Assembly: GCA_016789905.1 (NCBI GenBank)
Contig: JAEUQC010000063.1
Location: forward strand, 1 to 64,000
Direction: 5' to 3'
Source: Bryobacterales bacterium
GTDB lineage: Bacteria; Acidobacteriota; Terriglobia; Bryobacterales; Bryobacteraceae
DNA length: 64,000 nucleotides
Made by a program: the position numbers and the translations under genes. Shown here in pieces: positions 33,623 through 48,944 of the stretch (the first letter of the stretch is position 1; the number at the start of each line of letters is the position of its first letter). The notes below the pieces were generated by a model. That model ran no database searches, was not told the DNA's origin, and was given only the letters and a program-made list of their open reading frames with translations.

Positions 33623-33679
33623 TATCCTTACAGGATACGGCCACTTGCCGGATTCGTTGGAACTCGGCTAGTTTGAATC

Positions 33680-35962
33680 ATGGTACGCAGCCTGCTTCTT
33701 GGGATCGTTCTGCTTTCGCTCAATCTCGCGGCACAGAACAAGAAAAGCCCGATCGATAAGTTCCGCCAGTTGGAAGAGATCCTTCCGACGCCGAATGAAT
33801 ACCGCACCGCCTCCGGCGCTCCAGGCCACAAATACTGGCAACAGCGGGCCGATTATTCGATCGACGTAGAGTTGGACGATCTAAACCAGAAGATCATCGG
33901 GCGCGCCGCCATTACCTACCACAACAACTCGCCGGACACCCTGACCTATCTTTGGCTTCAACTTGACCAGAACATCTGGGAGCCCCATTCGGACACCGAT
34001 CTGACGGCCACCGCACCGGATTGGAAAAAATTTCCGCTTCCTACGTTCCGGCGATTTATGGATGATCCGTTCGCCGGGGGATACCGCATTGGTCCCGTAA
34101 AAGACGCGACAGGCAAGGAGCTGAATAAACACATCAACCGGACGATGATGCGGGTGGACCTGCCCGCGCCATTGCCCAGCGGCAAGTCCTTCGTCTTCTC
34201 GCTCGATTGGGATTACAAGATCAACAACTCCAAACGAGTCAGCGGCCGGACGGGCGCCGAGTTCTTCCCCAAAGACAACAATTGGCTCTACGAAATTGCC
34301 CAGTGGTTCCCGCGCATGGCTGCTTATAACGACGTGAGCGGCTGGCAGCACAAACAGTTTCTTGGCACCGGTGAATTCACGCTTGAGTTTGGAGACTACA
34401 AGGTGCGAATCACCGCGCCGAACGACCACATTGTGGCCTCCACCGGAGTGCTGCAGAATCCGGAACAGGTGCTGACGCCGCTGCAGCGCCAACGTCTGGC
34501 CGTGGCCAGGACTGCCACAAAGCCGGTGATGATTGTCACCGAAGCCGAAGCCACCGCCAACGAAAAGTCAAAACCCACGGGCAAGAAGACCTGGATTTTC
34601 CACGCCGAAAACGTGCGGGATTTTGCATTCGCGTCGTCCCGAAAATTCGCCTGGGACGCGCAGGGCCACAACATGAACGGCAAGACGATCATGGCCATGT
34701 CGTATTACCCCAAGGAGGGCAACCCGCTGTGGGAACGCTATTCCACTCATGCCATCATTCATACGCTGAACATCTACTCGCGCTACACGTTTGAGTATCC
34801 CTACCCGATCGCCATTAGCGTGAACGGCCCCGTGGGCGGCATGGAGTATCCGATGATTTGCTTCAACGGCCCGCGGCCAAAGGACGACAAAACCTATTCG
34901 GCCCGCACGAAGTATGGGTTAATCAGCGTGGTCATCCACGAAGTGGGCCACAACTATTTCCCCATGATTGTTAACAACGACGAGCGCCAGTGGACATGGC
35001 TCGATGAAGGAATCAACTCGTTCCTTCAGTACCTGGCCGAGGTGGAATGGGAGGATAACTATCCGTCGCGCCGAGGCGATCCGGCCAAGATCGTTGAATA
35101 CATGAAGGGCGAAGGGCACGACCCGATCATGACGAACTCGGAGTCCATCGTTGACCTGGGCGGCAATGCCTATCACAAGACCGCCACGGCGCTGAACATC
35201 TTGCGAGAAACGGTGCTGGGCCGGGAACGATTCGACTTTGCCTTCAAAGAATATGCCCGTCGCTGGATGTTTAAACGGCCCATGCCGGCGGACTTCTTCC
35301 GCACGCTGGAGGACGCAAGCGGAACCGATCTCGATTGGTTCTGGAAGGGCTGGTTCTATACGACCGATATTGTGGACATCTCGATTGACGAGGTGAAGCT
35401 GTACTCGGTAGACACGCAGAATCCGGAGATCGAAAAACCTCTTTCGAAGAAGGAAAAAGAAGCGGAACCGGTCACGCTCTCCGCCCAGCGGAACAAGCCG
35501 ATCCGCAAGCGCGTGGAAGACTTTCCGGAACTCGCTGATTTCTACAACAAATTCGATGAGTTCACCGTTTTGCCCTCGGAAAAGAAGGCCTTTGAGGCCT
35601 TCACTAAGCAGTTCGAAGAGGACGAGAGGAAGCTCTTTGATCCTTCGATGAGCTTTTACTCGGTGTCGCTGAAAAACATTGGCGGACTAGTGATGCCGGT
35701 AATATTGCGAGTGGAATTCGCCGACGGAACGCAGGAAGAACTCCGCATTGCCGCGGAGATTTGGCGGCGGAACAACCTGCAGGTGGAGAAGATCATCGCC
35801 ACCCGTAAGGAGATCAAGTCGATTGCGCTCGACCCCAATCTGGAAACCGCGGATGCCGATACGTCCAACAACTACTGGCCGCGCCGCGCCGTTAAATCGA
35901 AGTTCCAGATATTCAAAGAGGATCGCGACAAGGTAAACCCGATGCGCGAATTGAAGAAGTAG
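33680..35962 (+). CDS. M1-family zinc metallopeptidase, exported, 760 aa
   Basis: The signal peptide is MVRSLLLGIVLLSLNLAAQ. The gluzincin zinc site is HEVGH at residues 420-424 with the third ligand glutamate at 443 (WLDEG), exactly 18 residues later. A GGMEYPM block upstream stands for the exopeptidase GAMEN motif. The N-terminal beta-saddle domain and the C-terminal helical part are both present, with a basic linker near 590. It probably trims peptides in the periplasm. Its stop shares a base with the GTG of the next gene. Confidence 0.93.
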   Translation: MVRSLLLGIVLLSLNLAAQNKKSPIDKFRQLEEILPTPNEYRTASGAPGHKYWQQRADYSIDVELDDLNQKIIGRAAITYHNNSPDTLTYLWLQLDQNIWEPHSDTDLTATAPDWKKFPLPTFRRFMDDPFAGGYRIGPVKDATGKELNKHINRTMMRVDLPAPLPSGKSFVFSLDWDYKINNSKRVSGRTGAEFFPKDNNWLYEIAQWFPRMAAYNDVSGWQHKQFLGTGEFTLEFGDYKVRITAPNDHIVASTGVLQNPEQVLTPLQRQRLAVARTATKPVMIVTEAEATANEKSKPTGKKTWIFHAENVRDFAFASSRKFAWDAQGHNMNGKTIMAMSYYPKEGNPLWERYSTHAIIHTLNIYSRYTFEYPYPIAISVNGPVGGMEYPMICFNGPRPKDDKTYSARTKYGLISVVIHEVGHNYFPMIVNNDERQWTWLDEGINSFLQYLAEVEWEDNYPSRRGDPAKIVEYMKGEGHDPIMTNSESIVDLGGNAYHKTATALNILRETVLGRERFDFAFKEYARRWMFKRPMPADFFRTLEDASGTDLDWFWKGWFYTTDIVDISIDEVKLYSVDTQNPEIEKPLSKKEKEAEPVTLSAQRNKPIRKRVEDFPELADFYNKFDEFTVLPSEKKAFEAFTKQFEEDERKLFDPSMSFYSVSLKNIGGLVMPVILRVEFADGTQEELRIAAEIWRRNNLQVEKIIATRKEIKSIALDPNLETADADTSNNYWPRRAVKSKFQIFKEDRDKVNPMRELKK

Positions 35963-36420
35963 TGCGGCTGCTGGTTGGGCTGTGTTTGTGCGCTTCGTTG
36001 GAGGCACACAAGTTCCACTACAGTCGCACGGAGATCAACTGGAACACGGCGGCGCGAAGGGTGGAGATCATCGCCACGCTGCACGCCGATGACATCGAGA
36101 CCCGCCTGCGACAGTCCCATGCGCAACTGGAACTGGATAGAGACAAGCGGGCTGAGAAGCTCGTTTGCGCCTACACCGCTGGGGCGCTCGCGTTGGGTGC
36201 GTTGCGCCCGCGTTGTATCGGCATGAAGGTGGGCCGTGATTATGTTGACGTTTATCTGGAAGCCGCCGTGGAAGCGCCTCCGAAGGTTTTGACGAATCGG
36301 ATCCTCATTGAGAATCTGCCGGATCAACGCAACGACGTGGAACTGAGAAAGGACGGTAAACTGCTCGGCCCGCGCATTCAATTCAATACTTCTGAAACCC
36401 GCAAGGAAGTTCGCTGGTAA
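35962..36420 (+). CDS. DUF6702-like exported protein, 152 aa
   Basis: GTG start sharing one base with the peptidase stop. A short hydrophobic leader (LLVGLCLCASLEA) is followed by HKFHYSRTEINWNTAARRVE, the histidine-bearing opening of a family found beside M1 peptidases in Bacteroidetes and Acidobacteria. The fold is probably a small beta-sandwich; no enzymatic motif is seen. The direct coupling to the peptidase suggests a partner or secretion accessory for it. Confidence 0.7.
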   Translation: MRLLVGLCLCASLEAHKFHYSRTEINWNTAARRVEIIATLHADDIETRLRQSHAQLELDRDKRAEKLVCAYTAGALALGALRPRCIGMKVGRDYVDVYLEAAVEAPPKVLTNRILIENLPDQRNDVELRKDGKLLGPRIQFNTSETRKEVRW

Positions 36421-36426
36421 CGTCGA

Positions 36427-36432
36427 TATAAT
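36427..36432 (+). promoter_or_regulatory. Consensus -10 TATAAT, leaderless candidate
   Basis: A perfect TATAAT ends 10 nt before the ATG at 36443. The intervening GGCGCTCGTT has no ribosome binding site. There is no good -35 at 17 nt. Confidence 0.45.
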
Positions 36433-36442
36433 GGCGCTCGTT

Positions 36443-38374
36443 ATGCGCTATAGCCTGTTGTTCCTACTTTCCGCGGCTCTGCAAGCCCAGAATGCGACCA
36501 CCGCCGGCCGCTTCCATGTCGAACATCCGACGCTCATGAATCTTGGGTTTGAATGGGCCATCACCGGCGACGCCAATCGCAATGCCACTGTCGATGTGAC
36601 GTTTCGCGCCGTTGGCGAGTCCGGTTGGCGCCCGGCCATGCCGCTTGTCCGTGTCGGCGGTGAGAATATTTACCGCCGCCGGGAGAATCTTGACTACACC
36701 GTCCCCGATGGCTTTGCCGGGAGCATCCTGAATCTTCGGCCGGGCACCGAATACGAGTGCCGGTTTGTGCTGAAGGATGCGGACGGCGCGACCGGCCAAA
36801 CGACGCATACGGTAAAGGTCAAGACCCGCACGGAGCCGATGCCATACGCGGGCGGTCAGATCCGCCACGTCTATTCGCCGGAGTATAAAGGGCCCAAGGT
36901 GGAACCGCATTTCACTAGCGTTTTGCAGGCCTACTACGGCGCCGGGCTTGGTGACTGGTCTGTCGTGTGGGAGCGCCGCGCTCAACCGGGAGATACAATT
37001 CTGGTTCATGCCGGTATCTATCGTCCCGAGCGTTTGAACTATGTCGACCCCATGATGACGCCATTCGATGGGTCTATGTCGCTAACCCTGAAAGGGACTC
37101 CTGAAAAGCCGATTACCATCAAATCCGCGGGCGATGGGCAGGTCATCTTCGACGGCGATGGGAACCACTCGATGTTCGACGTTACCGCGTCGCGCTATCA
37201 CATCTTTGATGGCATCACCATTCGCAATACTGATATCGGCATTCAGGCCGGGCAGAAGGAAGTGCTGGGCGCTGTTGGGCTGACGGTCAAGAACTGCCGC
37301 TTTGAAAACGTCGGTTTCGGGATCTGGACAGAGTATGCCGGATCGTCGGATTTCTACATCGCCGACAATCTAATTCTCGGACGCGAAGACCGCTTCCAAC
37401 TCAATGGCTGGACCGGATTCATGTGGCAGCCCATCGGCAACTACGGTTCTCATCAGCTCAAGAGTTACTACGGAATAAAAGTCTATGGCCCGGGGCACGT
37501 TATCGCTCATAACGCGATTGCGTATTTCCACGATGCCATCGGCATCTCAACCTATGGCACGCCGCCCTCCGACCCCGAAATGCGCGCCTCGTCCATTGAC
37601 ATTTACAACAACGACTTTCACATGTGCAATGACGACTATGTGGAAACCGACGGCGGTGTCCACAACGTACGCGTGATGAACAATCGCGGAGTGAACGCTT
37701 TCCACGGAGGCTATAGTTCACAGCCGACGTTTGGCGGGCCAATTTACTTCATCGGCAACATCCTTTATCACACCACTTCGTCCACCAGTTTCAAATTTTC
37801 GGCTCATCCGGCGGGGTTGTTCGTTTACCACAACACGATCATCAATGAACATCTGGTGGGCGAACCGTACTCGAACGCCCACTGGCGCAACAATCTGATC
37901 CTCAGCAAGAATAGCGGCGGCGGCGTGATGACCTGGGCGAATGCCACGGACGCGTATTCATCGGACTACAACGGCTTCCGGCCGAACCGGAATGGCGCGC
38001 CGCAATACCGCTTTTTCGCTCCGCCGAAAGGGCAGAAGGTCTATGAAACGAAACCGGAGATGTGGAAGTCGTTCGCCTCGTTGAAGGAGTTGGCGGCCGC
38101 GACTGGCCAGGAGACGCACGGAGTAGAAATCGACTACGACATTTTTGAGAACCTGTCGCCGCCGACGGCCACGGACCGCCACAAGGTCTATCATTCGATG
38201 GACCTGAACTTCCAATTGAAGTCCGCCAGCAAGGCCGTGGACGCCGGTGTGGTCATCCCCACTGTGAACGACAACTACACGGGCAAGGCTCCGGATCTTG
38301 GCGCGCTGGAGACGGGCCGGCCGGAGACCAAGTGGGGCCCGCGGTGGATTGCCTGGGCCCCGTTCTACCGCTAG
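36443..38374 (+). CDS. Exported right-handed beta-helix protein, 643 aa
   Basis: A signal peptide (MRYSLLFLLSAALQAQ) leads to a fibronectin-like N-terminal domain (residues 20-130) and then parallel beta-helix repeats, seen as IFDGITIRNTDIGIQAG, VKNCRFENVGFGIW, IDIYNNDFHMCND and FVYHNTIINEH. The fold is that of pectate lyase-like and other polysaccharide-active proteins; no catalytic set can be assigned. A frame start 12 nt earlier overlaps the TATAAT, so the ATG at 36443 is preferred. The stop adjoins a long palindrome (38374-38408). Confidence 0.8.
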   Translation: MRYSLLFLLSAALQAQNATTAGRFHVEHPTLMNLGFEWAITGDANRNATVDVTFRAVGESGWRPAMPLVRVGGENIYRRRENLDYTVPDGFAGSILNLRPGTEYECRFVLKDADGATGQTTHTVKVKTRTEPMPYAGGQIRHVYSPEYKGPKVEPHFTSVLQAYYGAGLGDWSVVWERRAQPGDTILVHAGIYRPERLNYVDPMMTPFDGSMSLTLKGTPEKPITIKSAGDGQVIFDGDGNHSMFDVTASRYHIFDGITIRNTDIGIQAGQKEVLGAVGLTVKNCRFENVGFGIWTEYAGSSDFYIADNLILGREDRFQLNGWTGFMWQPIGNYGSHQLKSYYGIKVYGPGHVIAHNAIAYFHDAIGISTYGTPPSDPEMRASSIDIYNNDFHMCNDDYVETDGGVHNVRVMNNRGVNAFHGGYSSQPTFGGPIYFIGNILYHTTSSTSFKFSAHPAGLFVYHNTIINEHLVGEPYSNAHWRNNLILSKNSGGGVMTWANATDAYSSDYNGFRPNRNGAPQYRFFAPPKGQKVYETKPEMWKSFASLKELAAATGQETHGVEIDYDIFENLSPPTATDRHKVYHSMDLNFQLKSASKAVDAGVVIPTVNDNYTGKAPDLGALETGRPETKWGPRWIAWAPFYR

Positions 38375-38408
38375 CAAAATAATTGGTGCCTGGCACCAAT
38401 TATTTTGC
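38374..38408. repeat. Perfect 17-bp palindrome between convergent genes, copy 1
   Basis: GCAAAATAATTGGTGCC, central T, then its exact complement GGCACCAATTATTTTGC. Transcribed either way it gives a stem with A- and U-rich lower part, fitting a bidirectional terminator for the beta-helix gene (stop 38372-38374) and the TonB receptor (stop 38437). Its core AATTGGTGCC-T-GGCACCAATT recurs at 44738-44758. A second small hairpin (GCGGGG...CCCCGC, 38407-38429) overlaps its right end. Confidence 0.8.
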
Positions 38409-38436
38409 GGGGCGGAGTGCTAGCCCCGCAGCCAAA

Positions 38437-41400
38437 CTAGAATTGATACTTCAGCGCTAACTGAATCACCCGCGGAGATCCGGCGGACGTGATGCGGCCG
38501 AACGCCGCCGCAGCGCGGTTCGCGTTTGGGTTGCCCAGGTTCACGCGGTTCAGCGCGTTGAACGTCTCCATCCGAAACTGCATTTTGTGACGCTCAGTGA
38601 CCGGGATATTTTTGAAAAGCCCGAAGTCCACGTTTACATCGCCCGGTCCACGCATGATGTTCCGGCCAGCGGTGCCGTAGGTGCCCACTGCGTTGAACGC
38701 GAAAGCATCAATGTTGAAGAAACGATCGACAAGCTGGCCAGTTGGCCGCCCGGTGTCGAGGTACGGATTGCCCACCAGATCGGCACGGTCCTGATTTACT
38801 CCGGTGAAAGAGTTGTCCCTGCCCGAGACTACCGTAAACGTTGTACCGCTTTGCAGCGACAGAATGCCATTCATGTCCCATCCGCCGGCCAGGTATTTGA
38901 CTAGCGCAATCCGCTCCTTCAGGCGCGGCAGTTCATAGACGAACGAACCGACAAAACGGTGCGGAATATCCAGGTTGGAAAGCCCGCGATTGAAGCGCTG
39001 ATCAAACGGATTCGGGGAAACAGTGCCGTCGCCGGAAGCATCGTCGATCATCTTCGACCATGTGTAGGAGGCCATCAGTGAGTAGCCCCTTGTGAACCGC
39101 TTGTTCACCGAAACCTGCATGGAATTGTAGTTCGAATTCCCGTCGCTCTTCTGCAGCGCGACGGTGCCGAAATCCGGAGCAAACAGGCGCCGGGCGTTGG
39201 TGTTGGCCGTCGTCGCACCGGTGCGGAATACCGCGGGATTGCCTTCAATTTGGTTGAACAAATGCGTACCCTTGCTGCCCACGTAGGCCAACGTGCCCAC
39301 CCAGGAACCGAAGAACTCGCGCTGCAGGTTGAAGTTCCACTGCTGCATGTAGCCGTTGCTGAAATCGGCGTTGTAGGGCATCATTGTCAACGGCCGGATG
39401 AAGCGGTACGTCCTGCGCGCGTCGGCGGTGGCGGGCGCGGTGAAAGGCCATGGATTGCCTGTATTGGCGTAGGGGTTTTCTACGCTTGGAGGTGCGTCGA
39501 AGGTGAACTTCGCCGCAAATGGCTGCGAGTTCGATGGCTGGTTGTTGGCCTGCTGGCGGATTTGAGACCAGAACACGCCGTAGCCGCCGCGGACGCTGAG
39601 TTTGCCCTTGCCGGAAGGGTCCCAGGCGAAACCGAAGCGCGGCGCCAGGCGGTTGTATTTGGCCTCCATCGCGGAGAAGGGAACTCCCGTGTCGCCGGGG
39701 AACACGACGCCAGCGGGCGCTGTCGGAAACACGGTGCTCTGTTGGCCCGGACGGAACTGGCTGAAGCGGTTGTCGGAATCGGTGAACGGCAGGAATGGGT
39801 CATAGCGAAGACCCAGGTTCAGCGTCAGCCGCGGCTTCACTTTCCAATCGTCCTGCGCGAACAGGCCCCATTCCTTCTGGCGGGGCTGGTTCACCAGCAG
39901 CGAACCTTGCCGGAAATTGAACACCCGGCCCAGAATCAAATCCGCCGCGGAATCGCCGGTGATCTGGCCGTTGAAGACGAGTGCCGGGTCGCCTTCGAAG
40001 AACTCCGACAAGTCCAACTGGGATAGCCGAACACTTCCGCCAACCTTCAGGAAGTGGGCGCCTTTGTTCCAGTTCAGCCGTTCACTAATTTCAAAGTTCC
40101 GGCGGAAGTGTTGGAGCGGATAACGCGTGAAAGCATTGAAGCGCCCGTTGACATTGGTGCTAATCGCATAGGGTATGTCGGATTCGGTGAATGGGCGCGT
40201 GAACTTGGCTCCGAAGTCGTTCCAGTTTTTGTTCCCCGGAACTACGGATAGCTGCCGGCGGTCGATGTCGTTGAACGTGAATTGGAAGCTATTGAGAAGC
40301 GTAGGGCTGAGGATGTGGGTGTCGGAAAGCGACAGGTTGTAGTTGCTGTACTTGATGTTGGCGAACAGGTTGGGCAGGTTGCCAGGCACCTCCTGAAACG
40401 CTTCATCGTTGATCAGGAACCGTCCGCTTACGCGGTTGGCCGAACTAAGCTGATGGTCGATTTTGAAGATTGTATTGTCCTGGTCGTTGGACTGCTGGCT
40501 GGCGAAGCTAAACAGTCCGTCCGCGCGGTTGGGCAGCGGCACGAATGCGTCCAGGAACTTGATGGACGGCTGGGAAATGCGACTCGCCGGGATCGTGCGG
40601 TTGGGGAAGGGCTGGTTGTTGTTCGCCGGGTCCGTGATGGCACGCGCGAGACCGGAAAAGTTTCCTTGGCGCTCTGCCGCCGACGGTACGTTGGCCGTCT
40701 GCGCGCCAGGCGCGGACCGGTCTCGCGTACCTTGGTAGCTCACGAAGAAGAACGTCTTGTCCCGCACGATTCGGCCGCCAAACGTTCCGCCAAACTGGTT
40801 CCGTTTGAATGGCGGCACTGTGTTTGAAAAAAAGTTGCGCGCGTTCAGCTTTTCGTTGCGCAGGAATTCGAACAGGCTCCCGTGCCAATCGTTGGTGCCG
40901 CTCCTGGTCACTGCGTTCATTAACGCGCCGGCGTTGCGTCCGTATTCGGCCGAGTAGGCGTTGGTGTTGATGGAAAACTCTTCCAGCGCGTCGGGCGGAG
41001 GAAAAACGGCAGGGGAATTAAAGTACGGGTCGTGATTGTCGCCGCCATCGAGCACGTAGTTGTTCCCGTTTTGCCGGCTGCCGTTGATGGAGATCGTGTT
41101 GTTCTGTCCTTGCCCGCGGTCGGCTACGGCGCCCGCGCCCGGAACCAGTCGCTGGAGGTCCAGCGCGTTGCGCCCGTTCAGTGGCAACTCGATAATTCGT
41201 TTCGAGTCGATCACTTCCTTCAGCGTTCCCGTTCGCGTTTCCACCTGGACGCTCTCCGCCTCCACGGTTACGCTTTCGGCCACATCGCCGATTTGCAGTG
41301 TAATCGGCACCTGCCGGTTTTCGTCCACCTGCACGCGAATCCCAGTCTGTACGAATTTCTTAAAGCCTTGCCGTTCGGCGGAAATGGAGTAGGCGCCAAT

Positions 41401-41598
41401 GGGAAGCTGTGTGGCGACGTAGTCACCGCGTTCATTGCTGACAACGCTTCGCACTTGCCCTGTCTCCACCTGCAGAATCCGCACCGTTGTGCCTGGTATT
41501 AGGCTGCCGCTCGCATCCGTCACAGTTCCGTAGATCGTCACACTCCCCTGCGCCAGCAAGCTGGCGGCTGCTATTAGACCGAAAAAAAGAAGCTTCAT
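38437..41598 (-). CDS. Oar-like TonB-dependent receptor, 1053 aa
   Basis: After a signal peptide comes a carboxypeptidase-regulatory-like beta-sandwich (VTIYGTVTDASGSLIPGTTV to about residue 105), a plug domain (RIIELPLNGRNALDLQRLVP) and a 22-stranded barrel ending in the usual aromatic residue (LALKYQF). This architecture is abundant in Acidobacteria and imports oligosaccharides or other large substrates across the outer membrane. Long Gln/Asn-rich loops (RQQANNQPSNSQP) are external. It stands alone: no SusD-like partner or TonB box regulator is nearby. TAGACT is 9 nt before the ATG. Confidence 0.93.
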   Translation of the reverse strand: MKLLFFGLIAAASLLAQGSVTIYGTVTDASGSLIPGTTVRILQVETGQVRSVVSNERGDYVATQLPIGAYSISAERQGFKKFVQTGIRVQVDENRQVPITLQIGDVAESVTVEAESVQVETRTGTLKEVIDSKRIIELPLNGRNALDLQRLVPGAGAVADRGQGQNNTISINGSRQNGNNYVLDGGDNHDPYFNSPAVFPPPDALEEFSINTNAYSAEYGRNAGALMNAVTRSGTNDWHGSLFEFLRNEKLNARNFFSNTVPPFKRNQFGGTFGGRIVRDKTFFFVSYQGTRDRSAPGAQTANVPSAAERQGNFSGLARAITDPANNNQPFPNRTIPASRISQPSIKFLDAFVPLPNRADGLFSFASQQSNDQDNTIFKIDHQLSSANRVSGRFLINDEAFQEVPGNLPNLFANIKYSNYNLSLSDTHILSPTLLNSFQFTFNDIDRRQLSVVPGNKNWNDFGAKFTRPFTESDIPYAISTNVNGRFNAFTRYPLQHFRRNFEISERLNWNKGAHFLKVGGSVRLSQLDLSEFFEGDPALVFNGQITGDSAADLILGRVFNFRQGSLLVNQPRQKEWGLFAQDDWKVKPRLTLNLGLRYDPFLPFTDSDNRFSQFRPGQQSTVFPTAPAGVVFPGDTGVPFSAMEAKYNRLAPRFGFAWDPSGKGKLSVRGGYGVFWSQIRQQANNQPSNSQPFAAKFTFDAPPSVENPYANTGNPWPFTAPATADARRTYRFIRPLTMMPYNADFSNGYMQQWNFNLQREFFGSWVGTLAYVGSKGTHLFNQIEGNPAVFRTGATTANTNARRLFAPDFGTVALQKSDGNSNYNSMQVSVNKRFTRGYSLMASYTWSKMIDDASGDGTVSPNPFDQRFNRGLSNLDIPHRFVGSFVYELPRLKERIALVKYLAGGWDMNGILSLQSGTTFTVVSGRDNSFTGVNQDRADLVGNPYLDTGRPTGQLVDRFFNIDAFAFNAVGTYGTAGRNIMRGPGDVNVDFGLFKNIPVTERHKMQFRMETFNALNRVNLGNPNANRAAAAFGRITSAGSPRVIQLALKYQF

Positions 41599-41607
41599 GT
41601 TGCCGCC

Positions 41608-41613
41608 AGTCTA
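41608..41613 (-). promoter_or_regulatory. -10-like TAGACT before the TonB receptor
   Basis: On the minus strand TAGACT is followed by GGCGGCAAC and the ATG at 41598. The 9-nt gap leaves a leader of only a few bases. Confidence 0.35.
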
Positions 41614-41642
41614 TCAACTCCATCGCCTGGCGGCGCGGCGTG

Positions 41643-42680
41643 CTACGGCAGAACCACCATCCCCCACGGCGATCCGGTCAGTGCTATTTTCTTCGTTACC
41701 GTCTTGCCGGCCAGGTCGATCACTGACAAATCGTTAGATGGCCCGTTTGCGCTATAGAGGGTCTTTCCATCCGGAGAAAGAGCAATTCCCCATGGGCGTT
41801 GCCCGACCTCGAATGAACTCTCGACTTTTCGCGCCGCCGTGTCTAGAATGAAGACCTTTTTTCCTCGCCCCGTGCTCACGTAGAGCTTCGAAGCATCCTT
41901 GCTCAGCAGCACCGCCATCGGCTTCACCACACCTGCTTCGCCCAGCGCAATCGTCTCCACCACGGCGTTCTTCTCCACATCCACGTAGACCACAGTTCCA
42001 TCGTTTTCTGCGTTGACCCACACATGCTTCCCGTCCGGCATCCATGCAATAGTACGCGGCCGCCGCCCCACTTTCAGCTTGTTCACCACCTTTTGCGTGG
42101 CCGTATCGATCTTGTAGATCATCCCCGCGTCTTCCGATGTGGCATAGACGTACTTGCCATCCGGACTCATCCTCACGCCTTCCGGTTCCTCGCCTGTGGG
42201 CAGTGTCGCCACGATCTTTTCTGTCGACAGGTCCAGGATCGACACGCCCGCTACATCTTCATTGGAGACGTAAAGGAACTTCCCATCGGCTGTAATGTCG
42301 AACTCTTCCGGATCGCTCCCGCTCTTCAACATTTTCACCACTCTGCCTTGCGCGATGTCGTATACTCCGATGCCATCCGCGCTCTTGTCCGGCGGCGGCA
42401 AGGTGCTTTCATCCACGCCCGGCCCGGCGATGGGCGACCCGCTGAGCGCCACGTAGATCAACTTCCCGTCCGGACTCGCATGGATCCCACGAGGGCGTTT
42501 CCCCAGCGGCACTGTCGCCACCACTTCATGTGTCGCCGAGTCAATCACGCTGAGGTCGCCAGACCGTTCGTTGGTGACATAGATCCGGTATCCGCCCGCC
42601 GGCTTCTCCCCCGCCTTCTCGGGAGCTTTCGCGCAGCCGCCCAAAAATGCCAACAAAATTGCCACAAATCCGTAACGCAT
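41643..42680 (-). CDS. YVTN beta-propeller lipoprotein, 345 aa
   Basis: The lipobox AFLGGC anchors it to a membrane. Seven YVTN/YncE blades are visible, for example IYVTNERSGDLSVIDSATHE, ASPDGKLIYVALSG, SPDGKYVYATSEDAGMIYKI and LSPDGKTLYSANGPSNDLSV. Such propellers often bind metal or partner redox proteins in quinoprotein and surface-layer contexts. It follows the cupredoxin-like gene with 1 nt between, and the dihaem peroxidase lies upstream, so it belongs to a three-gene envelope redox operon. Confidence 0.85.
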   Translation of the reverse strand: MRYGFVAILLAFLGGCAKAPEKAGEKPAGGYRIYVTNERSGDLSVIDSATHEVVATVPLGKRPRGIHASPDGKLIYVALSGSPIAGPGVDESTLPPPDKSADGIGVYDIAQGRVVKMLKSGSDPEEFDITADGKFLYVSNEDVAGVSILDLSTEKIVATLPTGEEPEGVRMSPDGKYVYATSEDAGMIYKIDTATQKVVNKLKVGRRPRTIAWMPDGKHVWVNAENDGTVVYVDVEKNAVVETIALGEAGVVKPMAVLLSKDASKLYVSTGRGKKVFILDTAARKVESSFEVGQRPWGIALSPDGKTLYSANGPSNDLSVIDLAGKTVTKKIALTGSPWGMVVLP

Positions 42681-42681
42681 C

Positions 42682-43395
42682 TCAGTTTCCCTTCAATGTA
42701 AATGTCATCTCGTGGGACGCCGACGCCGCTAGCGTCACGGTCTGCTCCTGGCCCCCCAGCACGGAATCCCAAACCGCTACCGTATATGTTCCCGGCGGCA
42801 CATTGCGAATCGCGAATTCCCCGCCTTCTCCGGTCACGGTGAAGTAGGGATGATCCACCACGCCGATCCATGCTCGCATCCAGCTATGCACATTGCACTT
42901 CACTGGGATCATGATCTCCGGCACGGCGAACTTCCGCGACAATGGCGGGTCCTCCGGCGCCTGACTTTGGTTCCAGTCCCGGTTCTTCTGCGGCTGCGGA
43001 TGAATGTTGTGCGTCACCGGGTCGGAGTTGGTCACCTTGAGCGGCTGCCCCGCCTGCATTCCAATCACCCGTGGTGAAAACCAGCAACCCTTTTGGTCGA
43101 TCACCACCGGCTCCGACGGTACAGCGAACTTCTTTCCTTCCAGACCCGTCTTTAGATACACAAACACGTTTCTCATGCCGGGCTTCTCCGTGATCGAACC
43201 TGCAGCGTACAGTTTCGCGCATTGCGGATCGCTGTCCAACGAAATGACCTTTGCCGGCGGCAGCTTTCCATCCACTCGAATGCTCCCTCGGATCACACCC
43301 GCCGTGGCTTTGTCGGCCTCGAAATAAACTGGCTCCGGCGGAGGCGCCGGCGCGCACGCCGTTAGCAGCAAGAGCAGTGGAATCAGTAGCAGCAC
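42682..43395 (-). CDS. Cupredoxin-like lipoprotein, 237 aa
   Basis: GTG start. The lipobox is LLLLLTAC. The domain carries a likely type 1 copper ligand set: histidine in NSDPVTHNIHPQP and C-x2-H-x2-M in KCNVHSWM. A carboxypeptidase-regulatory-like turn (GGEFAIRNVPPGTYTVAVWD) closes the domain. It should shuttle electrons at the membrane, plausibly to or from the dihaem peroxidase encoded upstream (43408). TAAACT lies 6 nt before the GTG. Confidence 0.75.
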   Translation of the reverse strand: MLLLIPLLLLLTACAPAPPPEPVYFEADKATAGVIRGSIRVDGKLPPAKVISLDSDPQCAKLYAAGSITEKPGMRNVFVYLKTGLEGKKFAVPSEPVVIDQKGCWFSPRVIGMQAGQPLKVTNSDPVTHNIHPQPQKNRDWNQSQAPEDPPLSRKFAVPEIMIPVKCNVHSWMRAWIGVVDHPYFTVTGEGGEFAIRNVPPGTYTVAVWDSVLGGQEQTVTLAASASHEMTFTLKGN

Positions 43396-43401
43396 GTGTC
43401 C

Positions 43402-43407
43402 AGTTTA
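43402..43407 (-). promoter_or_regulatory. -10-like TAAACT before the cupredoxin-like gene
   Basis: On the minus strand TAAACT is followed by GGACAC and the GTG at 43395, a 6-nt gap. It lies between the peroxidase stop and this gene, so it would be an internal operon promoter. Confidence 0.3.
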
Positions 43408-44433
43408 TTACTGAACGCGTGCCAACTCACCGGTCAACGATTCCAGGAATGCCACCAAATCCTCCCGGTCCCTTCCCGTCAACGCCAGCGGCCTTACCTC
43501 TTTGTCCAAATACGGATTGGAACTGCCCCCTCCGGCGTAGAAATCCACCACCGCGCGCAGCGTCTTCAGACTCCCGTCATGCATATACGGCCCTGTCTGC
43601 GCGACGTTTCGCAGCGACGGAGTCTTGAAAGCGCCCTTATCGCTTTCCACTTTTGTCTCCGCGAACCGTCCCAAGTCCACCAACTCCCCTTCCGGGCTCA
43701 GACCCGCGCCAACGTTGTGAAATTTCCCGTCGCTGAAAACAGCCTCCTTCGTACCTGCTGTATGGCAAGCCGCGCAGTTTCCCCTCTCTCTGTCCAGAAA
43801 AATCGCCATTCCGCGCGCCGCCGGCGCGGAGAGGGCGGCCTTGTTGCCGCCGTAAAAATACTGGTCGAACGGAGAGTTGCCTGTAACCACTGTCCGCTCA
43901 TACGCCGCGATGGCCCGCTGGATGTGGAGCATGGTGATCGCGCCTTCGCCAAACGCTTTGGCGAAAAGTGTTCGATATTCCGCGTCTCCCTGCACGCGTC
44001 TCACGCATTCTGCGTGCGGCAGATTCATCTCAATCGGATTCGCGATTGGCCCGGCGGCTTGTTCCTCTAATGATGCCGCCCGTCCATCCCAAAACTGTCG
44101 CGGGCTGTACGCCGCGTTCAATACCGTCGGGGCGTTCCGGTTACCCGTCTGCTGACGCACGCCCACCGCCGTCTTTCGCGAATCCCCGAACCCCTTTTCC
44201 GGATCGTGACACGATGCGCAGGATACCGTTCCATCGGCCGAAAGCCGCGGATCGAAATATAGCTTCTTGCCGAGCGCCACCGTTTCCTCCGTTAGCGGAT
44301 TCTCTTCCGGCGCCGGCACGGCAGGCAGGCCCAACGGCGCGATCACATTGACCGGCTTGCCTATCGGCTTCAAACCGGCCGTCTTGGTGCACGCTCCCAG
44401 CAGCACAACTCCCACAATCAGCATCAATCGCAT
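43408..44433 (-). CDS. Dihaem cytochrome-c peroxidase/MauG-family lipoprotein, 341 aa
   Basis: The lipobox is VVLLGAC. Two c-haem sites are CASCHDPEKGF and CAACHTAG, and the GPYMHDGSLKTL block carries the distal-site region typical of bacterial CcpA/MauG enzymes. These reduce peroxide or carry out oxidative chemistry on partner proteins in the periplasm. The TTG frame begins 9 nt earlier, but the ATG at 44433 is better placed (CATAAT 11 nt upstream). It leads an operon with the cupredoxin-like and YVTN lipoproteins, and is divergent from a small cytochrome gene. Confidence 0.9.
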   Translation of the reverse strand: MRLMLIVGVVLLGACTKTAGLKPIGKPVNVIAPLGLPAVPAPEENPLTEETVALGKKLYFDPRLSADGTVSCASCHDPEKGFGDSRKTAVGVRQQTGNRNAPTVLNAAYSPRQFWDGRAASLEEQAAGPIANPIEMNLPHAECVRRVQGDAEYRTLFAKAFGEGAITMLHIQRAIAAYERTVVTGNSPFDQYFYGGNKAALSAPAARGMAIFLDRERGNCAACHTAGTKEAVFSDGKFHNVGAGLSPEGELVDLGRFAETKVESDKGAFKTPSLRNVAQTGPYMHDGSLKTLRAVVDFYAGGGSSNPYLDKEVRPLALTGRDREDLVAFLESLTGELARVQ

Positions 44434-44444
44434 AGATCGCAACC

Positions 44445-44450
44445 ATTATG
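44445..44450 (-). promoter_or_regulatory. -10-like CATAAT before the peroxidase
   Basis: CATAAT on the minus strand is exactly 11 nt before the ATG at 44433, the same hexamer and spacing as before the dehydratase at 13759. Confidence 0.42.
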
Positions 44451-44478
44451 ACCTGCGAGACAATGGAGCGAAAGCCGC

Positions 44479-44739
44479 ATGCGCCGTCTTATCCTACTGC
44501 CAATTTGCCTGCTTCTTCTCATCGCCGATGACAGCAAGAAACTGCCCGACGGCCCGGGCCGCAAGACCACCGAACGGCTTTGCGGCGCGTGTCACGGCTT
44601 CGGGAACTTCATTAAGCGCCGCGAGACGCGCGACGGCTGGAACGCCATCATTGAGGACATGATCCGCCGCGGCGCCATGGGCCAGGACGAGGAATGGGCC
44701 GAGGTATCCGACTACCTCTACGCCCAATTCCCAAAATAA
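44479..44739 (+). CDS. Small exported monohaem cytochrome c, 86 aa
   Basis: A signal peptide (MRRLILLPICLLLLIA) precedes a single haem-binding motif CGACHGFG in a compact class I-like domain ending in DYLYAQFPK. It resembles the small cytochromes that accompany quinoproteins and probably accepts electrons in the periplasm. GGAG is 10 nt before the ATG. It diverges from the peroxidase, and its stop codon is part of the palindrome at 44738-44758. Confidence 0.82.
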   Translation: MRRLILLPICLLLLIADDSKKLPDGPGRKTTERLCGACHGFGNFIKRRETRDGWNAIIEDMIRRGAMGQDEEWAEVSDYLYAQFPK

Positions 44740-44758
44740 TTGGTGCCTGGCACCAATT
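44738..44758. repeat. Palindrome AATTGGTGCC-T-GGCACCAATT, copy 2
   Basis: The 21-base core is identical to that at 38381-38401. Its left end overlaps the stop codon of the plus-strand cytochrome gene (44737-44739) and its right end touches the stop of the minus-strand gene (44758). On the plus strand it is followed by TAATCTTTTTG, so it can act as a terminator. It is the second case of this palindrome between convergent genes. Confidence 0.8.
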
Positions 44759-46626
44759 TAATCTTTTTGCAGGTCGCGCCAGACCACGGTGGACCGGCCA
44801 TCTCTATCCGCGCCGGCCACTCGCAGTCGATATTTCCCGGGCTTGTCCAATTGGAAGCGCACCGTTTCTCCTGGCGGAATGATTCGCATGTCCTCTTCGG
44901 CCGGTCCGTACAGTTCCCAGTAGAAACGGGCATTCCGGTACACGCCTGCTGCGTCTGCCCCGGTTGTATAGTACAGATCCGCCTCGCTCCACGCCCGCCC
45001 TGTGTACCAGCCGTTCGGACCGCTCATCAGTTTCACTTCGATGGCTGGTCCCCCGTCTCGCCGCGCCACTCCACGCGCCTTTTCATCGATCCGCACCACC
45101 CGCTCATAACCCGCCGTCGACAGCGCCGGCAGATCCCACAACACATCGAACCGCACCCCTTCGCGCATCGCCTTTTCCATTTCCAACAGCGCCGCCGTCA
45201 TCACCTCACCGTACGTTACCCCGAACTGATTCTTCCGCTCCCGATGCAACTCGGTCAGTCCCCACAGCAGTCCTTTCCCCTGATGCACATGCCCGTAGTT
45301 GTAACCCGCCGGGATCACAATCGCCAACGATGCGCGTGGCGCCGGTGCTACGCGCGGATGCGCCTTTGCATGTGCCCGCAAATGACGGGCATGGGAAAGC
45401 ACCTCTCCAAACGGCACACATGCCAACTGATAGTTGTCCCAGAAATAGAACCGCGTCGCTCCATCGTCGTACGCTCTTGTCAGCCAATACGGTGCGTCGG
45501 CCCGTTCCACGGCCCCATAGATGCTAATCCCCCACTCCTTCCCTGTAACTCGGGCCGCGCCCCGCAGAAATCCGAAAATTAACGACGGCAGTACGTTCGG
45601 AGCCAATGGAAATCGCGTGCCGAACGACATATTCAGCTCTGGCACTGTCCGCCACGTTCCAATGCGCCCGGCCGGTTCCCACACAAACGCCGCCGCTTTC
45701 TGTGTCAATTCATACCCAGCCGCGGCCTCCATCGTCTCCCAGCTATACAGGTTCTCTTGCGCAATCGATAGCGAACCAAGGTTCACATCCTTGCGCGCCT
45801 TTAGCATTTTCATTAACGCCGAGGTGTTCCGTGCTTCCGACGCCGCGAAGTGCTCCCGGAAGGCTTCAAAAGCTACCTGTGGAGTGACGGCCTTTCGATA
45901 CGCCGGGTCCTTAACCATTCTCGGGCGCAATACATGGTCCCTGGTTCCCACTGCTGGCTCGTCCAGAAAAATGACCGGGCCCAGGTACTGCGGCCGGTAG
46001 AGCATCTCCGGGTAGGGCAGGGAAGCCGGGCCCCAATAAAACAGGCCCAAACGTTCCGCCCACTCTGCCTGTTCCGTATCCGCATGAACGCACGAAACGC
46101 CGGCCTCAGCCATCAACTTGTAGTCGGATTCCACCATCCGCACATATTCATACTCGCTGGTATCGTAGCGACGCGTCTCATCTTTCTGCCTTCGGTTGTA
46201 GGCTGGGCCAACCAGAATATCGGGCTGCAAAAAAACGGTTTCCGCCGCAACCGGCAGCGCCACGTCTTTTTCGCCGACACGCTGATAGACATGTCCTAAA
46301 ACGGTTACTCTCTCCGCTTCCGCCAGGGGCAGAAGCGACGCCCAGCCACCTAACGATGGCAGCACCGCTGCTCCTGAAACCGGATGTTTGAACTCTCGCG
46401 CCGGCCCTGTTCCTTCCTGCAGCAAGTACCGCGCTCCCCGCACCCAATGAACCGCGAACCTGCCACCGGCGCGTTTCTCGGCGGCCAACGAAACTCGCGG
46501 CCCATCGACCGTCAGAACGAGCGAGGAAAGCGTAGCGCCTTCGTCAAGTGGCCGGTATTCGGCCGCGAACACGCCGACGGACAGCAGCAGAAAACTACTG
46601 GCTCGCGTGACAAACATCGCATCCAT
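44758..46626 (-). CDS. Exported protein of unknown function, hydrolase-like, 622 aa
   Basis: A signal peptide (FVTRASSFLLLSVGVFAAE) is followed by an N-terminal beta domain and a middle region that looks like a TIM barrel (MAEAGVSCVHADTEQAEWAE, ENLYSWETMEAAAGYEL, AFVWEPAGRIGTWRT) rich in Trp, Glu and Asp, then a terminal beta-sandwich ending in STVVWRDLQKD. A glycoside hydrolase role is possible but no catalytic pair can be named. GAGG 6 nt upstream favours the ATG at 46626. The start overlaps the end of the pentahaem cytochrome gene by 32 nt, so the two are one transcript. Confidence 0.6.
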   Translation of the reverse strand: MDAMFVTRASSFLLLSVGVFAAEYRPLDEGATLSSLVLTVDGPRVSLAAEKRAGGRFAVHWVRGARYLLQEGTGPAREFKHPVSGAAVLPSLGGWASLLPLAEAERVTVLGHVYQRVGEKDVALPVAAETVFLQPDILVGPAYNRRQKDETRRYDTSEYEYVRMVESDYKLMAEAGVSCVHADTEQAEWAERLGLFYWGPASLPYPEMLYRPQYLGPVIFLDEPAVGTRDHVLRPRMVKDPAYRKAVTPQVAFEAFREHFAASEARNTSALMKMLKARKDVNLGSLSIAQENLYSWETMEAAAGYELTQKAAAFVWEPAGRIGTWRTVPELNMSFGTRFPLAPNVLPSLIFGFLRGAARVTGKEWGISIYGAVERADAPYWLTRAYDDGATRFYFWDNYQLACVPFGEVLSHARHLRAHAKAHPRVAPAPRASLAIVIPAGYNYGHVHQGKGLLWGLTELHRERKNQFGVTYGEVMTAALLEMEKAMREGVRFDVLWDLPALSTAGYERVVRIDEKARGVARRDGGPAIEVKLMSGPNGWYTGRAWSEADLYYTTGADAAGVYRNARFYWELYGPAEEDMRIIPPGETVRFQLDKPGKYRLRVAGADRDGRSTVVWRDLQKD

Positions 46627-47119
46627 TAGGGGCCTCGTGTTTCGCATGGCAGGCCATGCAAGTCTGCATCGATAACGACTTCTCTTGGAACAATATGTCC
46701 CGCTTCCCCACGTCTCCGTGGCACTCAGCGCACTCTGTTTTCGCCACCTTCACATGTACCGAATGGTTGAACCAAACGATGTCGGGGTTCTTGTACACGC
46801 GAGCCCAGGGCACGGGTTCCTTCTTAGCGGCAAATGCGGCCAGTTTCTGTATCTCTGCGCTTTCCTTTTTCACCGTCGCGTGGCACCCCATGCACATCGT
46901 CTCCTTCGGAAACGTGGCGGCAAATCCATCCCCAGGCATGGTGTGGCAGTTGGCACACTTCATACCCATAGCCACATGGGTTTTGTGGCTATAGGCAATC
47001 GGTTGCGCCACAGGGTCTCCCGGCAGCTTTTCTTCCTTCGGCTTGTACTCTTTTTCCTGCGCCGTTAATGACAACGCCGCCACCAGCAAAACGCTACAAC
47101 GAAAACGCAATGTACTCAT
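46595..47119 (-). CDS. Exported pentahaem cytochrome c, 174 aa
   Basis: A signal peptide (MSTLRFRCSVLLVAALSL) precedes five CxxCH sites: CANCH, CMGCH, CAECH, CMACH and CDVCH, in about 120 residues. Extra histidines (SHKTHVAMG, FNHSVHVKV) are likely distal ligands, as in class III/c7 cytochromes and respiratory multihaem proteins. It starts inside the last 26 nt of the quinoprotein gene, which points to direct electron transfer from that enzyme. Confidence 0.9.
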   Translation of the reverse strand: MSTLRFRCSVLLVAALSLTAQEKEYKPKEEKLPGDPVAQPIAYSHKTHVAMGMKCANCHTMPGDGFAATFPKETMCMGCHATVKKESAEIQKLAAFAAKKEPVPWARVYKNPDIVWFNHSVHVKVAKTECAECHGDVGKRDILFQEKSLSMQTCMACHAKHEAPNGCDVCHASQ

Positions 47120-48944
47120 CGTGTGCCTTTGATCCGTTCTTGCCACCGGCCGCCGCGATCACCACGAACTGCTTCCCATTGGCCTCATAAGTCATCGGCG
47201 TCGCGAATCCGCCGGCCGGCAACTCATACTCCCAGACTACCTTCCCGGTGTCGGAGTCAAACGCCCGCATCATCCGGTCGAATGTCCCAGCCATAAACAC
47301 CAGGCCCCCCGCCGTGCAGATGCTGCCACCGTTCGACGGCGTGCCCGTCTTTGGAACGCCTCGCTTTTTCAACTCCGGGAACTCGCCGTTCACTACCCGC
47401 CAAGCAAAGTCACCCTTGTTCGCGTCAATTGCCGTCATGTAGCCCCAGGGTGGCTTGATTCCCGGATAGCCCTCCTGGTCCTGCAGCGCCACGCGCTTGC
47501 TCAACGCATATTCCACATTCATGCCCGGCTCGGCGTTCTTGAACGCAATCACGTTCGTCGTTTCATCTGAATTTACAAACACGCGGTTCCGCTTGGGATC
47601 AAAGCAACAGCCGCCCCAAAGAGCCCCTCCCCGAAACCCCGGATGCACGATGCCGCCCGTCATTGGCGCCGGATGATACAGTCCGCCAAACTCTGCCTTG
47701 TCCACCTGGGCTTTCACAAACGCGTGGGCTTCCGGGCTGATGTCAGTGATCCACTCCCGCTTAAACCCCTGCCGCGAAACCGGTGGCGGCTTCAGCGGAT
47801 GCGGCTGCGTTTTCGACAGCACTTCCCCCGGCATTTTTGATGCTGGGATCGGCCGTTCCTCCACACCGTAGATCGGTTTTCCCGTGTCCCGATCCAAGAA
47901 AAACAGGTACGCCTGCTTGGTCGGCTGCACCACGGCGTCCATCGTCTTGCCGTCCTTCTTCATCGTGATCAACGCCGGTTGCGCCGGCATGTCGTAATCC
48001 CAGATGTCGTGGTGAACGATCTGGTAATGCCACTTCTTCTTGCCCGTCAATGCGTCCAACGCCACCACGCAATTTCCATACAGGTTGTCGCCGATCCGGT
48101 TCCCCGCCCAGTAGTCAAAGCTCGGCGATCCAATGCCGGCGTACACCACGCCGCGCTTTTCGTCCACGCTCATTCCCGCCCAGTTATTCGTTCCGCCCGT
48201 GTACTTCCACGATTCGCCGGACCAAGTCTCGTGTCCCGGTTCGCCCGGCTTGGGTATTGTGTGGAATATCCATCGCCGCGTACCCGTCTTGGCGTCCCAG
48301 CCGCGTATGTGGCCAGGCGCCTCCGGATAGGGTCCCTCGCCGCCGCCCCCGCCCGTTATCACCACGTCCTTGTAGACCACTACCGGGCTTGAATGCTTGA
48401 ATGTCAGCTTGGCCATGTCATGATCGAAGCTCTCCTTCAGGTCGATCATGCCGCCCTTGCCGAATCCCGTTACCGGCTTGCCCGTCTTTGCTTCCAGCGC
48501 CCAAAGCTGGTCGCGATAGGCATGGAAGATTCGTTTGTCCTCTCCAGCCTCCCAATAGGTAACCGCGCGGGAAATGCCAGGTGCACGCCGGGAGGGCGCG
48601 CCGGACCCCGCCTCCGCGGGATCGAAGGTCCACAGAAGTTTGCCCGTCGCCGCCTCCACCGCCTGCACTTTGTTGCGTGCCGTCGTCAGGTACATCACGC
48701 CGTCCACCACAATCGGCGTACACTCAATCACCGTTGCCGGCCGCGCGCTGGCGTCGCCGGTTTTGTGTGTCCACGCGACTTTCAACTGCGCCACATTGCC
48801 TTTCGTCAACTGTGCGCACGGGGAATATCGGGATGCGCCGGCGTCTCCGCCGTAGTGGTTCCACTCTTTGGCGCGTGCCGCCGGCGCGGCCGCGCCCAAC
48901 ACGGCACTCGCGGCCGTCTGCTGCAAAAACTGTCGGCGATTCAT
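47094..48944 (-). CDS. PQQ-type quinoprotein dehydrogenase, Tat-exported, 616 aa
   Basis: A Tat signal (MNRRQFLQQTAASAVLGA) leads to an eight-bladed PQQ propeller that begins NHYGGDAGASRYSPCAQLTK, the hallmark of membrane-glucose-dehydrogenase-like quinoproteins. Later blocks NNWAGMSVDEKRGVVYAG, VHHDIWDYDMPAQPALI and GTPSNGGSICTAGGLVFMAG also fit. No haem domain is fused; the pentahaem cytochrome encoded downstream probably replaces it. The frame extends 67 codons upstream, but the ATG at 48944 begins the signal and has TATATT 7 nt before it. The substrate (sugar or alcohol) is unknown. Confidence 0.87.
   Translation of the reverse strand: MNRRQFLQQTAASAVLGAAAPAARAKEWNHYGGDAGASRYSPCAQLTKGNVAQLKVAWTHKTGDASARPATVIECTPIVVDGVMYLTTARNKVQAVEAATGKLLWTFDPAEAGSGAPSRRAPGISRAVTYWEAGEDKRIFHAYRDQLWALEAKTGKPVTGFGKGGMIDLKESFDHDMAKLTFKHSSPVVVYKDVVITGGGGGEGPYPEAPGHIRGWDAKTGTRRWIFHTIPKPGEPGHETWSGESWKYTGGTNNWAGMSVDEKRGVVYAGIGSPSFDYWAGNRIGDNLYGNCVVALDALTGKKKWHYQIVHHDIWDYDMPAQPALITMKKDGKTMDAVVQPTKQAYLFFLDRDTGKPIYGVEERPIPASKMPGEVLSKTQPHPLKPPPVSRQGFKREWITDISPEAHAFVKAQVDKAEFGGLYHPAPMTGGIVHPGFRGGALWGGCCFDPKRNRVFVNSDETTNVIAFKNAEPGMNVEYALSKRVALQDQEGYPGIKPPWGYMTAIDANKGDFAWRVVNGEFPELKKRGVPKTGTPSNGGSICTAGGLVFMAGTFDRMMRAFDSDTGKVVWEYELPAGGFATPMTYEANGKQFVVIAAAGGKNGSKAHDEYIAFSL

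Follow-up and report, generated by a model that had tools for sequence, protein, structure and literature searches.

Two palindromes between convergent genes

The DNA analysed here is a stretch of 64,000 nucleotides (nt) from a Bryobacterales bacterium (NCBI GenBank assembly GCA_016789905.1, contig JAEUQC010000063.1, positions 1 to 64,000), which we call the window, and the element in question is a 21-nt sequence, AATTGGTGCCTGGCACCAATT, that is found exactly at 38381-38401 and at 44738-44758. Both copies sit between convergent genes, as a sequence-only reading of the window had reported; the same reading took them for members of a dispersed, terminator-like repeat family, perhaps a mobile one similar to REPs (repetitive extragenic palindromes) or MITEs (miniature inverted-repeat transposable elements). 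A third copy was absent from the window at up to three mismatches, and a chance origin of the pair was rejected (0 of 100 shuffles). The palindromes and the adjoining genes are the following.

36431..38374, + strand: gene left of copy 1, 647 amino acids, with a weak beta-helix match just below the Pfam cut-off
38374..38408, no strand: copy 1, a perfect palindrome with 17 pairs either side of the centre, arms AAAATAATT/AATTATTTT
38385..38397, no strand: 13-base-pair (bp) core of copy 1, GGTGCCTGGCACC
38437..41598, - strand: gene right of copy 1, 1053 amino acids, TonB-dependent-receptor-like outer membrane protein
44479..44739, + strand: gene left of copy 2, 86 amino acids, weakly cytochrome-c-like (NCBIfam SorB, below its cut-off)
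44733..44766, no strand: copy 2, a hybrid palindrome with left arm AAAATAATT and right arm AATTTAATCTTT (b-type)
44742..44754, no strand: 13-bp core of copy 2, GGTGCCTGGCACC
44758..46647, - strand: gene right of copy 2, 629 amino acids, without a Pfam match at E 0.001

Copy 1, with its 17 paired positions per side, has the longer arms that had been read from the sequence. It shares only the final base of the left gene's TAG (38372-38374), and the stop of the right gene starts at 38437, 28 bp past the palindrome arm. The arm of copy 2 contains the TAA of its left gene (44737-44739) and so supplies its stop, the stop of the right gene (44758-44760, minus strand) includes the 21-mer's last base, and the final codons of the 629-amino-acid gene (AAA GAT TAA) are the b-type arm itself. 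The earlier statement that each copy touches the stops of both facing genes holds for copy 2, but at copy 1 only for the left one. No match at the gathering threshold was found in Rfam for 36000-47000.

At the copy 2 locus the relative G003 has a left gene of 149 amino acids with a helix-hairpin-helix domain that is missing from the 86-amino-acid gene of the window, and the stop of this longer gene overlaps that of the right gene. The last shared codons are separated by 39 bp in the window and by 207 in G003, and the extension of the left gene is also present, by inspection of the nucleotides, in the relatives G002, G004 and G005. As the reading frames are predicted, copy 2 is what now terminates both facing genes, at a site where G003 has 168 bp more. 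For copy 1 the comparison of the 3' ends of left-gene orthologues gave no simple empty site; where readable, the orthologues continue into other sequence. In another relative, G008 (L214), a different palindrome, GTGTCAGGCAGTGTCACGCAGTGCCTGACAC, lies directly behind the orthologue.

A dispersed repeat family of two classes

The genome to which the window belongs (G000; 8.08 Mb in 216 contigs) has 39 copies of GGTGCCNGGCACC with any base at the centre, 37 of them with A or T there (GGTGCCWGGCACC); the two with G or C pair only across six core positions. Reversed controls gave no copies in either count, and a half-site pattern was found at 60 + 39 places (3 + 1 for its control). The copies fall into two classes, 37 perfect cores and 27 imperfect ones of the form GGTGCCAAGC[A/G]CC, of which 26 are GGTGCCAAGCGCC. 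Before counting, 12 of 77 raw groups were removed (two duplicates from overlapping loci, three partial half-repeats at L015/L016 and seven chance or half matches); one row at the murB C-terminus, typed as other, belongs to neither class, and one further imperfect copy (L217 2114) appeared in a later check and is outside the count of 27. The unit is a hairpin with core GGTGCC-W-GGCACC and A+T-rich arms, ATTAAATT or AAATAATT. A dispersed family, of far more than the two copies in the window, had thus been rightly suspected.

Among 18 genomes of the same genus, perfect copies were found in G002 (16), G004 (57), G005 (23), G008 (21) and G011 (40), and none in the other 13. A five-gene protein tree built for 17 genomes unites the window's genome with these five (clade support 0.99), and G003, with no GGTGCCWGGCACC genome-wide, is the sister of this clade. 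Four of 42 more distant genomes had one perfect copy each. A scan of the genomes of 84,980 species gave 61 stretches with the 21-mer, most of them in G004, G005 and G011 and in one more acidobacterial assembly (nzgw75), the rest being single stretches in other phyla, with other arms. In G002 and G008 the core is kept and the arms differ (one copy of each viewed).

Several side observations concern these relatives. The viewed copies in G008 (L037 1507) and G002 (L039 1507) have arms TGTGGAAAA[G/C]T...A[C/G]TTTTCCACA that resemble DnaA boxes (TTWTNCACA). TAACTTATTAAGTTATCAACAC follows two of the five GGTGCCWGGCACC cores located within 8 kb of a Clostridiales genome (DTU032, L087), a stretch without a match to the transposase described below. 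Palindromes with one half tandemly repeated occur at L015 1472-1508, L143 ~4500-4545, L016 2693-2712 and L110 ~4719, and look as if they were products of slipped or template-switched copying. The sequence GGTGNCWGNCACC far outnumbers the GGTGCC core alone in G004 (152 vs 57), G005 (71 vs 23) and G011 (63 vs 40), and sister families such as GGTGTCTGACACC therefore probably exist in these three genomes.

A transposase gene between inverted copies

A transposase gene of the same genome has this position and content.

G000:C212:93745-94425: RAYT-type HUH (Y1) transposase gene (RAYT, REP-associated tyrosine transposase), 227 amino acids, with imperfect repeats on both sides, inverted

The upstream flank reads CCCCAAACATTAAATT-GGTGCCAAGCGCC-TATTTAATG and the downstream one, which starts at the stop codon of the gene, GATTAAATT-GGCGCTTGGCACC-ATTTTAATC, both with the arms of the family. 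The protein matches Y1_Tnp (PF01797) with E 4e-15, and the NCBIfam model for REP-associated tyrosine transposases with 67.8 bits (E 9e-19), below the cut-off of 80. Its sole match in the PDB at E 0.001 is 4er8, the solved structure named TnpArep (E 6e-5), and the HUH and Y...NP residues (H60, H62, Y119, N123, P124) are invariant in all six aligned proteins. Relatives with 56-58% identity are found in G003, G004 and G005 and as a second copy in G000, and in G011 there are matches of 38-40%. RAYT-like matches were present in 13 of 19 genus members in one search and in 15 of 19 in another. The presence of such a gene as a predictor of the repeat was rejected, with matches in genomes free of the repeat and none to this RAYT in the repeat-bearing G002 and G008. 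Some other RAYT genes of G004, G005 and G011 have palindromes of their own (L071, L080, L177).

Five inverted doublets of imperfect copies, 77-194 bp apart, have the GGTGCC side facing out, as in the RAYT unit, and there are three direct doublets plus a direct pair at L217. Direct repeats outside the paired arms measured 0-2 nt for the 37 perfect copies and 0 for the 27 imperfect ones, and a MITE with target-site duplication was rejected. The suggestion of a mobile element stands in its REP-like half, with a RAYT gene flanked by inverted family copies, and falls in its MITE-like half.

Copies inside genes

Seven perfect copies lie inside genes, and all keep the frame open, encoding IGARHHF, IGARHQF, KMVPGTI (twice), KLVPGTY, ILVPGTN and KLVPGTN. 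We compared five coding sites in four genes with their relatives, covering four of the seven intragenic perfect copies and judging the alignments within 12 residues of the repeat; the gene names are backed by Pfam. In the middle of murB, 16 of 16 relatives align gap-free across the repeat, and the same is true of a half repeat at the murB C-terminus (16 of 16). The alignment is also gap-free in all 17 spanning relatives of a hemN-like radical SAM gene (18 loci given) and in all 15 of a PQQ/cytochrome gene (18 given), where G004 and G005 carry this repeat in decayed form and the eight others viewed do not. The glycosyltransferase of the window's genome has four more amino acids than 14, and three more than two, of its 16 spanning relatives (18 given). 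The change in length is zero at four of the five sites and +9 to 12 nt at the fifth, for a repeat of ~30 nt. One stretch of 29-30 nt inside a reading frame is identical to copies elsewhere. From these alignments, the repeat seems to replace coding sequence at the five sites rather than to insert into it. Another intragenic copy (L007) is common to G004 and G011 and has no outgroup. At a convergent site (L027), 45 nt separate the stop from a shared motif in the window's genome, with the palindrome, and 37 nt in G003, without it.

Ordinary RAYT-mobilised REP or REPIN elements that insert as short units, with the intragenic cases later trimmed to length by selection, would be the conventional explanation. 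The RAYT with inverted flanking repeats and the five inverted doublets are the classic arrangement, and a passage of Di Nocera (2013; PMC3733652) already reports REPs located where convergent or tandem genes end, and TAG stops supplied by GTAG REPs. Against this stand the absence of any net change at four of five coding sites, the small gain at the fifth and the net deficit of 168 bp, compared with G003, that accompanies copy 2, and we regard simple insertion as unlikely, without dismissing it.

Core differences at orthologous sites

The window's genome, G004 and G005 share an orthologous RAYT locus beside the hemN-like gene (blastn identity 74-76% over 2.3-3.3 kb). Its flanks carry the core GGTGCCAAGCGCC in the window's genome and GTGTGTGACACGG in G004 and G005 (one G005 flank GTGTTTGACACGG). 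The dispersed copies differ in the same way: the loci sampled had 27 GGTGCCAAGCGCC and no GTGTGTGACACGG in the window's genome, and none and 29, respectively, in G004, G005 and G011 together, a sample that is biased because its loci were picked by perfect cores or half-sites. The repeat in the middle of murB is a perfect copy in the window's genome, has the GTGTGTGACACGG core at the same codons in G004, G005 and G011, and is present in neither form in G002 and G003. At one intergenic site the core is GTGTGTGACACGG in G004 and GGTGCTTGGCAC in G005 and G011, with arms alike; at most of the other sites compared the core was unchanged in G004, G005 and G011. The replacement pattern and the switching of cores, the new part of this work, are well supported as patterns, and a mechanism behind them would be a further step.

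Solo perfect palindromes could also be collapsed inverted doublets, in which a deletion between two imperfect REPs fused the outer halves. The first arm base would fit such an origin, being A in 69 of 74 arms of perfect copies, in 26 of 27 outer imperfect arms and in 10 of 27 inner ones (Fisher p 1.5e-8), and so would a doublet/solo difference at one orthologous site; for Pseudomonas REPINs a collapse by deletion is mentioned in a passage of PMC3116915. However, G004, G005 and G011 have many perfect cores and, in the loci sampled, no GGTGCCAAGCGCC, and a collapse leaves the copying into genes unexplained. We consider this origin doubtful, though a little less so than simple insertion.

Gene ends, hairpins and termination

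Gene calls came from our own codon model and not from a published annotator. The 37 perfect copies comprise 15 convergent, 15 tandem, seven intragenic and no divergent positions; the baseline, taken from intergenic positions of the same loci, was 16.5% convergent, 52.8% tandem and 30.7% divergent. The convergent excess and the divergent lack each have a binomial p of about 2e-5, values that are rough because the baseline positions are autocorrelated and a few copies lie close together. For 20 of the 30 intergenic perfect copies a gene 3' end lies no more than 20 nt away (baseline 15.5%). A neighbour's stop overlaps the strictly paired palindrome in 18 of the 30, both neighbours' stops in three of these, and in a listing of 19 overlapping stops 18 are TAA and one is TAG. 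The 27 imperfect copies are 12 convergent, nine tandem, two divergent (one doublet), one intragenic and three at locus edges. The gene-end preference that had been proposed is therefore real, and so is the enrichment between convergent genes, but a distribution restricted to convergent pairs was rejected, with tandem positions equally numerous and seven copies inside genes.

Copy 1 folds with -22.9 (+) and -22.4 (-) kcal/mol, z about -6 (-6.0 on the + strand), and copy 2 with -10.6 (+) and -11.3 (-) kcal/mol, z -1.9 and -2.4. A terminator consensus scan of 33000-47500 flagged, of the two palindromes, copy 2 alone and on the + strand only, among 19 sites in total, which is no excess over shuffles (16.1, standard deviation 3.9). 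A putative terminator function of the palindromes is plausible, because of their position and hairpin structure.

Could selection for termination alone, with no mobility, have made shared intrinsic terminators so alike? The gene-end bias, the lack of copies in divergent regions and the layout of A-tract, GC stem and T-tract would suit such an origin. The 29-30-nt stretch of a reading frame identical to copies elsewhere, the absence of the repeat from 13 of 18 genus members, the inverted copies around the transposase gene and the different cores at orthologous sites argue otherwise; the intragenic copies together with the RAYT flanks are enough to refute it. A plain terminator family was rejected as sole cause, and we give this origin hardly any credence. 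Binding sites for a palindrome-reading protein, a nucleoid protein or regulator, maintained by selection, would account for the perfect symmetry and for the recurrence of the core in other phyla with other arms. The 3'-end positions, the absence of copies between divergent genes, the doublets paired with the RAYT unit and the copying of arms along with the core make such sites very improbable too, if marginally less so.

A possible route of spread

The reading that we prefer, with a probability of roughly 0.6, is that the palindromes form a REP-like family linked to a HUH (Y1) transposase of the RAYT type, and that hairpin copies of the repeat replace patches of sequence. The RAYT would make or handle single-stranded hairpin copies, which may pair through microhomology with single-stranded DNA (probably at the replication fork) and take the place of ~20-40 nt there, with a variable amount of deletion and no insertion. 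Existing sites would be rewritten once the core of the family changes. Copies would persist mainly just behind genes, where they may serve as stop codon and two-way hairpin terminator, and would be removed by selection at other places. In its strong form, a search-and-replace spread in which transposase-made single-stranded REP hairpins overwrite 20-40 nt with no added length, also in essential reading frames, and the core at old sites is rewritten when the transposase's preferred hairpin changes, the proposal is tentative and has the odds somewhat against it. It would explain the length-neutral copies, the absent target duplications, the core switching and the perfect palindromes.

A number of observations weigh against the preferred reading. 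This RAYT had no match in G002 (16 perfect copies) or G008 (21), nor any better than 38-40% in G011, with 40 (the assemblies of G002, G008 and G011 are 62-83% complete); genus members that lack the repeat can also have RAYT-like genes, and a tblastn search with this RAYT found nothing next to the core at 13 loci from other lineages. The perfect-core copies are candidate rather than established substrates of the RAYT, because its own flanks have an imperfect core. The copy 2 hairpin is weak (-10.6 kcal/mol, z -1.9). The relatives compared are well diverged (protein identities about 58 to 86%), the intragenic copies at L007, L013 and L025 lie outside the comparison with copy-free relatives, and at any single site an insertion followed by an equal deletion could have given the same result. 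The weakest case is the hemN-like gene, whose nearest relatives already carry GTGCCGGACACGG at the site, so that a small number of substitutions could be enough. G003, without the family, has the near match GTGCCAGGCACGAGTTTAATCTC at the murB C-terminus. The half repeat there, of b-type (L031 3715), coincides with coding sequence of murB in the window's genome as well as in G004, G005 and G011, and almost does so in G003 (L241). The b-type arm may either derive from the 3' end of murB or mark an old overwrite there, which would explain the G003 match equally well.

Comparison with known systems

The closest relatives by description are the TIRYT/TIRtron elements, presented in part of PMC3733652 as a Y1 transposase gene with inverted repeats that lack GTAG and are sometimes self-complementary, copies being dispersed, moderately abundant and either single or dimeric; among the TIRYT groups, the one with the sharpest definition is acidobacterial. 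Our family is alike in having a RAYT-like gene between inverted repeats unrelated to GTAG. It differs from the GGGGWSAS motif that some TIRYT repeats share (by inspection, 6 of 8 positions agree in the GGTGCCAG of dispersed copies and 5 of 8 in the GGTGCCAA beside the RAYT) and, judged against the published description rather than the Koribacter repeats themselves, in its perfect palindromes, length-neutral genic copies and different orthologous cores.

With REPs and BIMEs (bacterial interspersed mosaic elements) linked to a RAYT, as portrayed in sections of Nunvar (2010; PMC2817692), it shares a transposase between inverted repeats, doublets, a mainly extragenic location and a cognate core that follows the transposase. 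The REPs in those sections have a GT(A/G)G head and, by the definition given, are extragenic and usually number more than 100. Here the head is missing (GTAG flanks 1 of the 37 perfect and 1 of the 27 imperfect copies, GTGG 1 and 0, below nearby control windows), 64 copies were counted, in a genome of 216 contigs, with 30 of 37 perfect ones extragenic, and 37 copies are perfect, unlike the imperfect palindromes of REPs and BIMEs. CGTC, the tag of other REPs, occurs at 4 of 37 and 4 of 27 copies, below the controls of 10.2 and 6.8. The inverted doublets with a spacer recall REPINs, whose single REPs may, according to a passage of Bertels and Rainey (2011; PMC3116915), come from deletion between the two REPs of a doublet; here, however, perfect copies are more often single than in doublets, and some are inside conserved genes.

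Replacement of a short DNA stretch, without insertion, is also the outcome of short-patch double illegitimate recombination. The difference is that the donor here is one transposase-linked repeat family.

Portions of three other papers state that REP-like sequences were not found near subclass 2.1 genes (PMC6006769), list three acidobacteria in a tool-based REP survey (PMC12306157) and call the manner of REP spread unresolved (PMC8266576). The sequence GGTGCCTGGCACC occurred in two papers, both unrelated to judge from title and abstract, and we found no report of length-neutral REP replacement in the open-access papers searched.

Implications

In outline, the REP-like, gene-end reading of the two palindromes holds, and a real RAYT-linked REP-like family is present in this genome. 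Conserved codons overwritten at constant gene length, together with cores that differ in step with the flanks of the transposase, point to a route of spread by replacement, which is open to direct testing. If it is true, bacterial proteins would gain short repeat-encoded peptides (KLVPGTN, IGARHQF) by the overwriting of patches, and new stop codons would be acquired in the same way.

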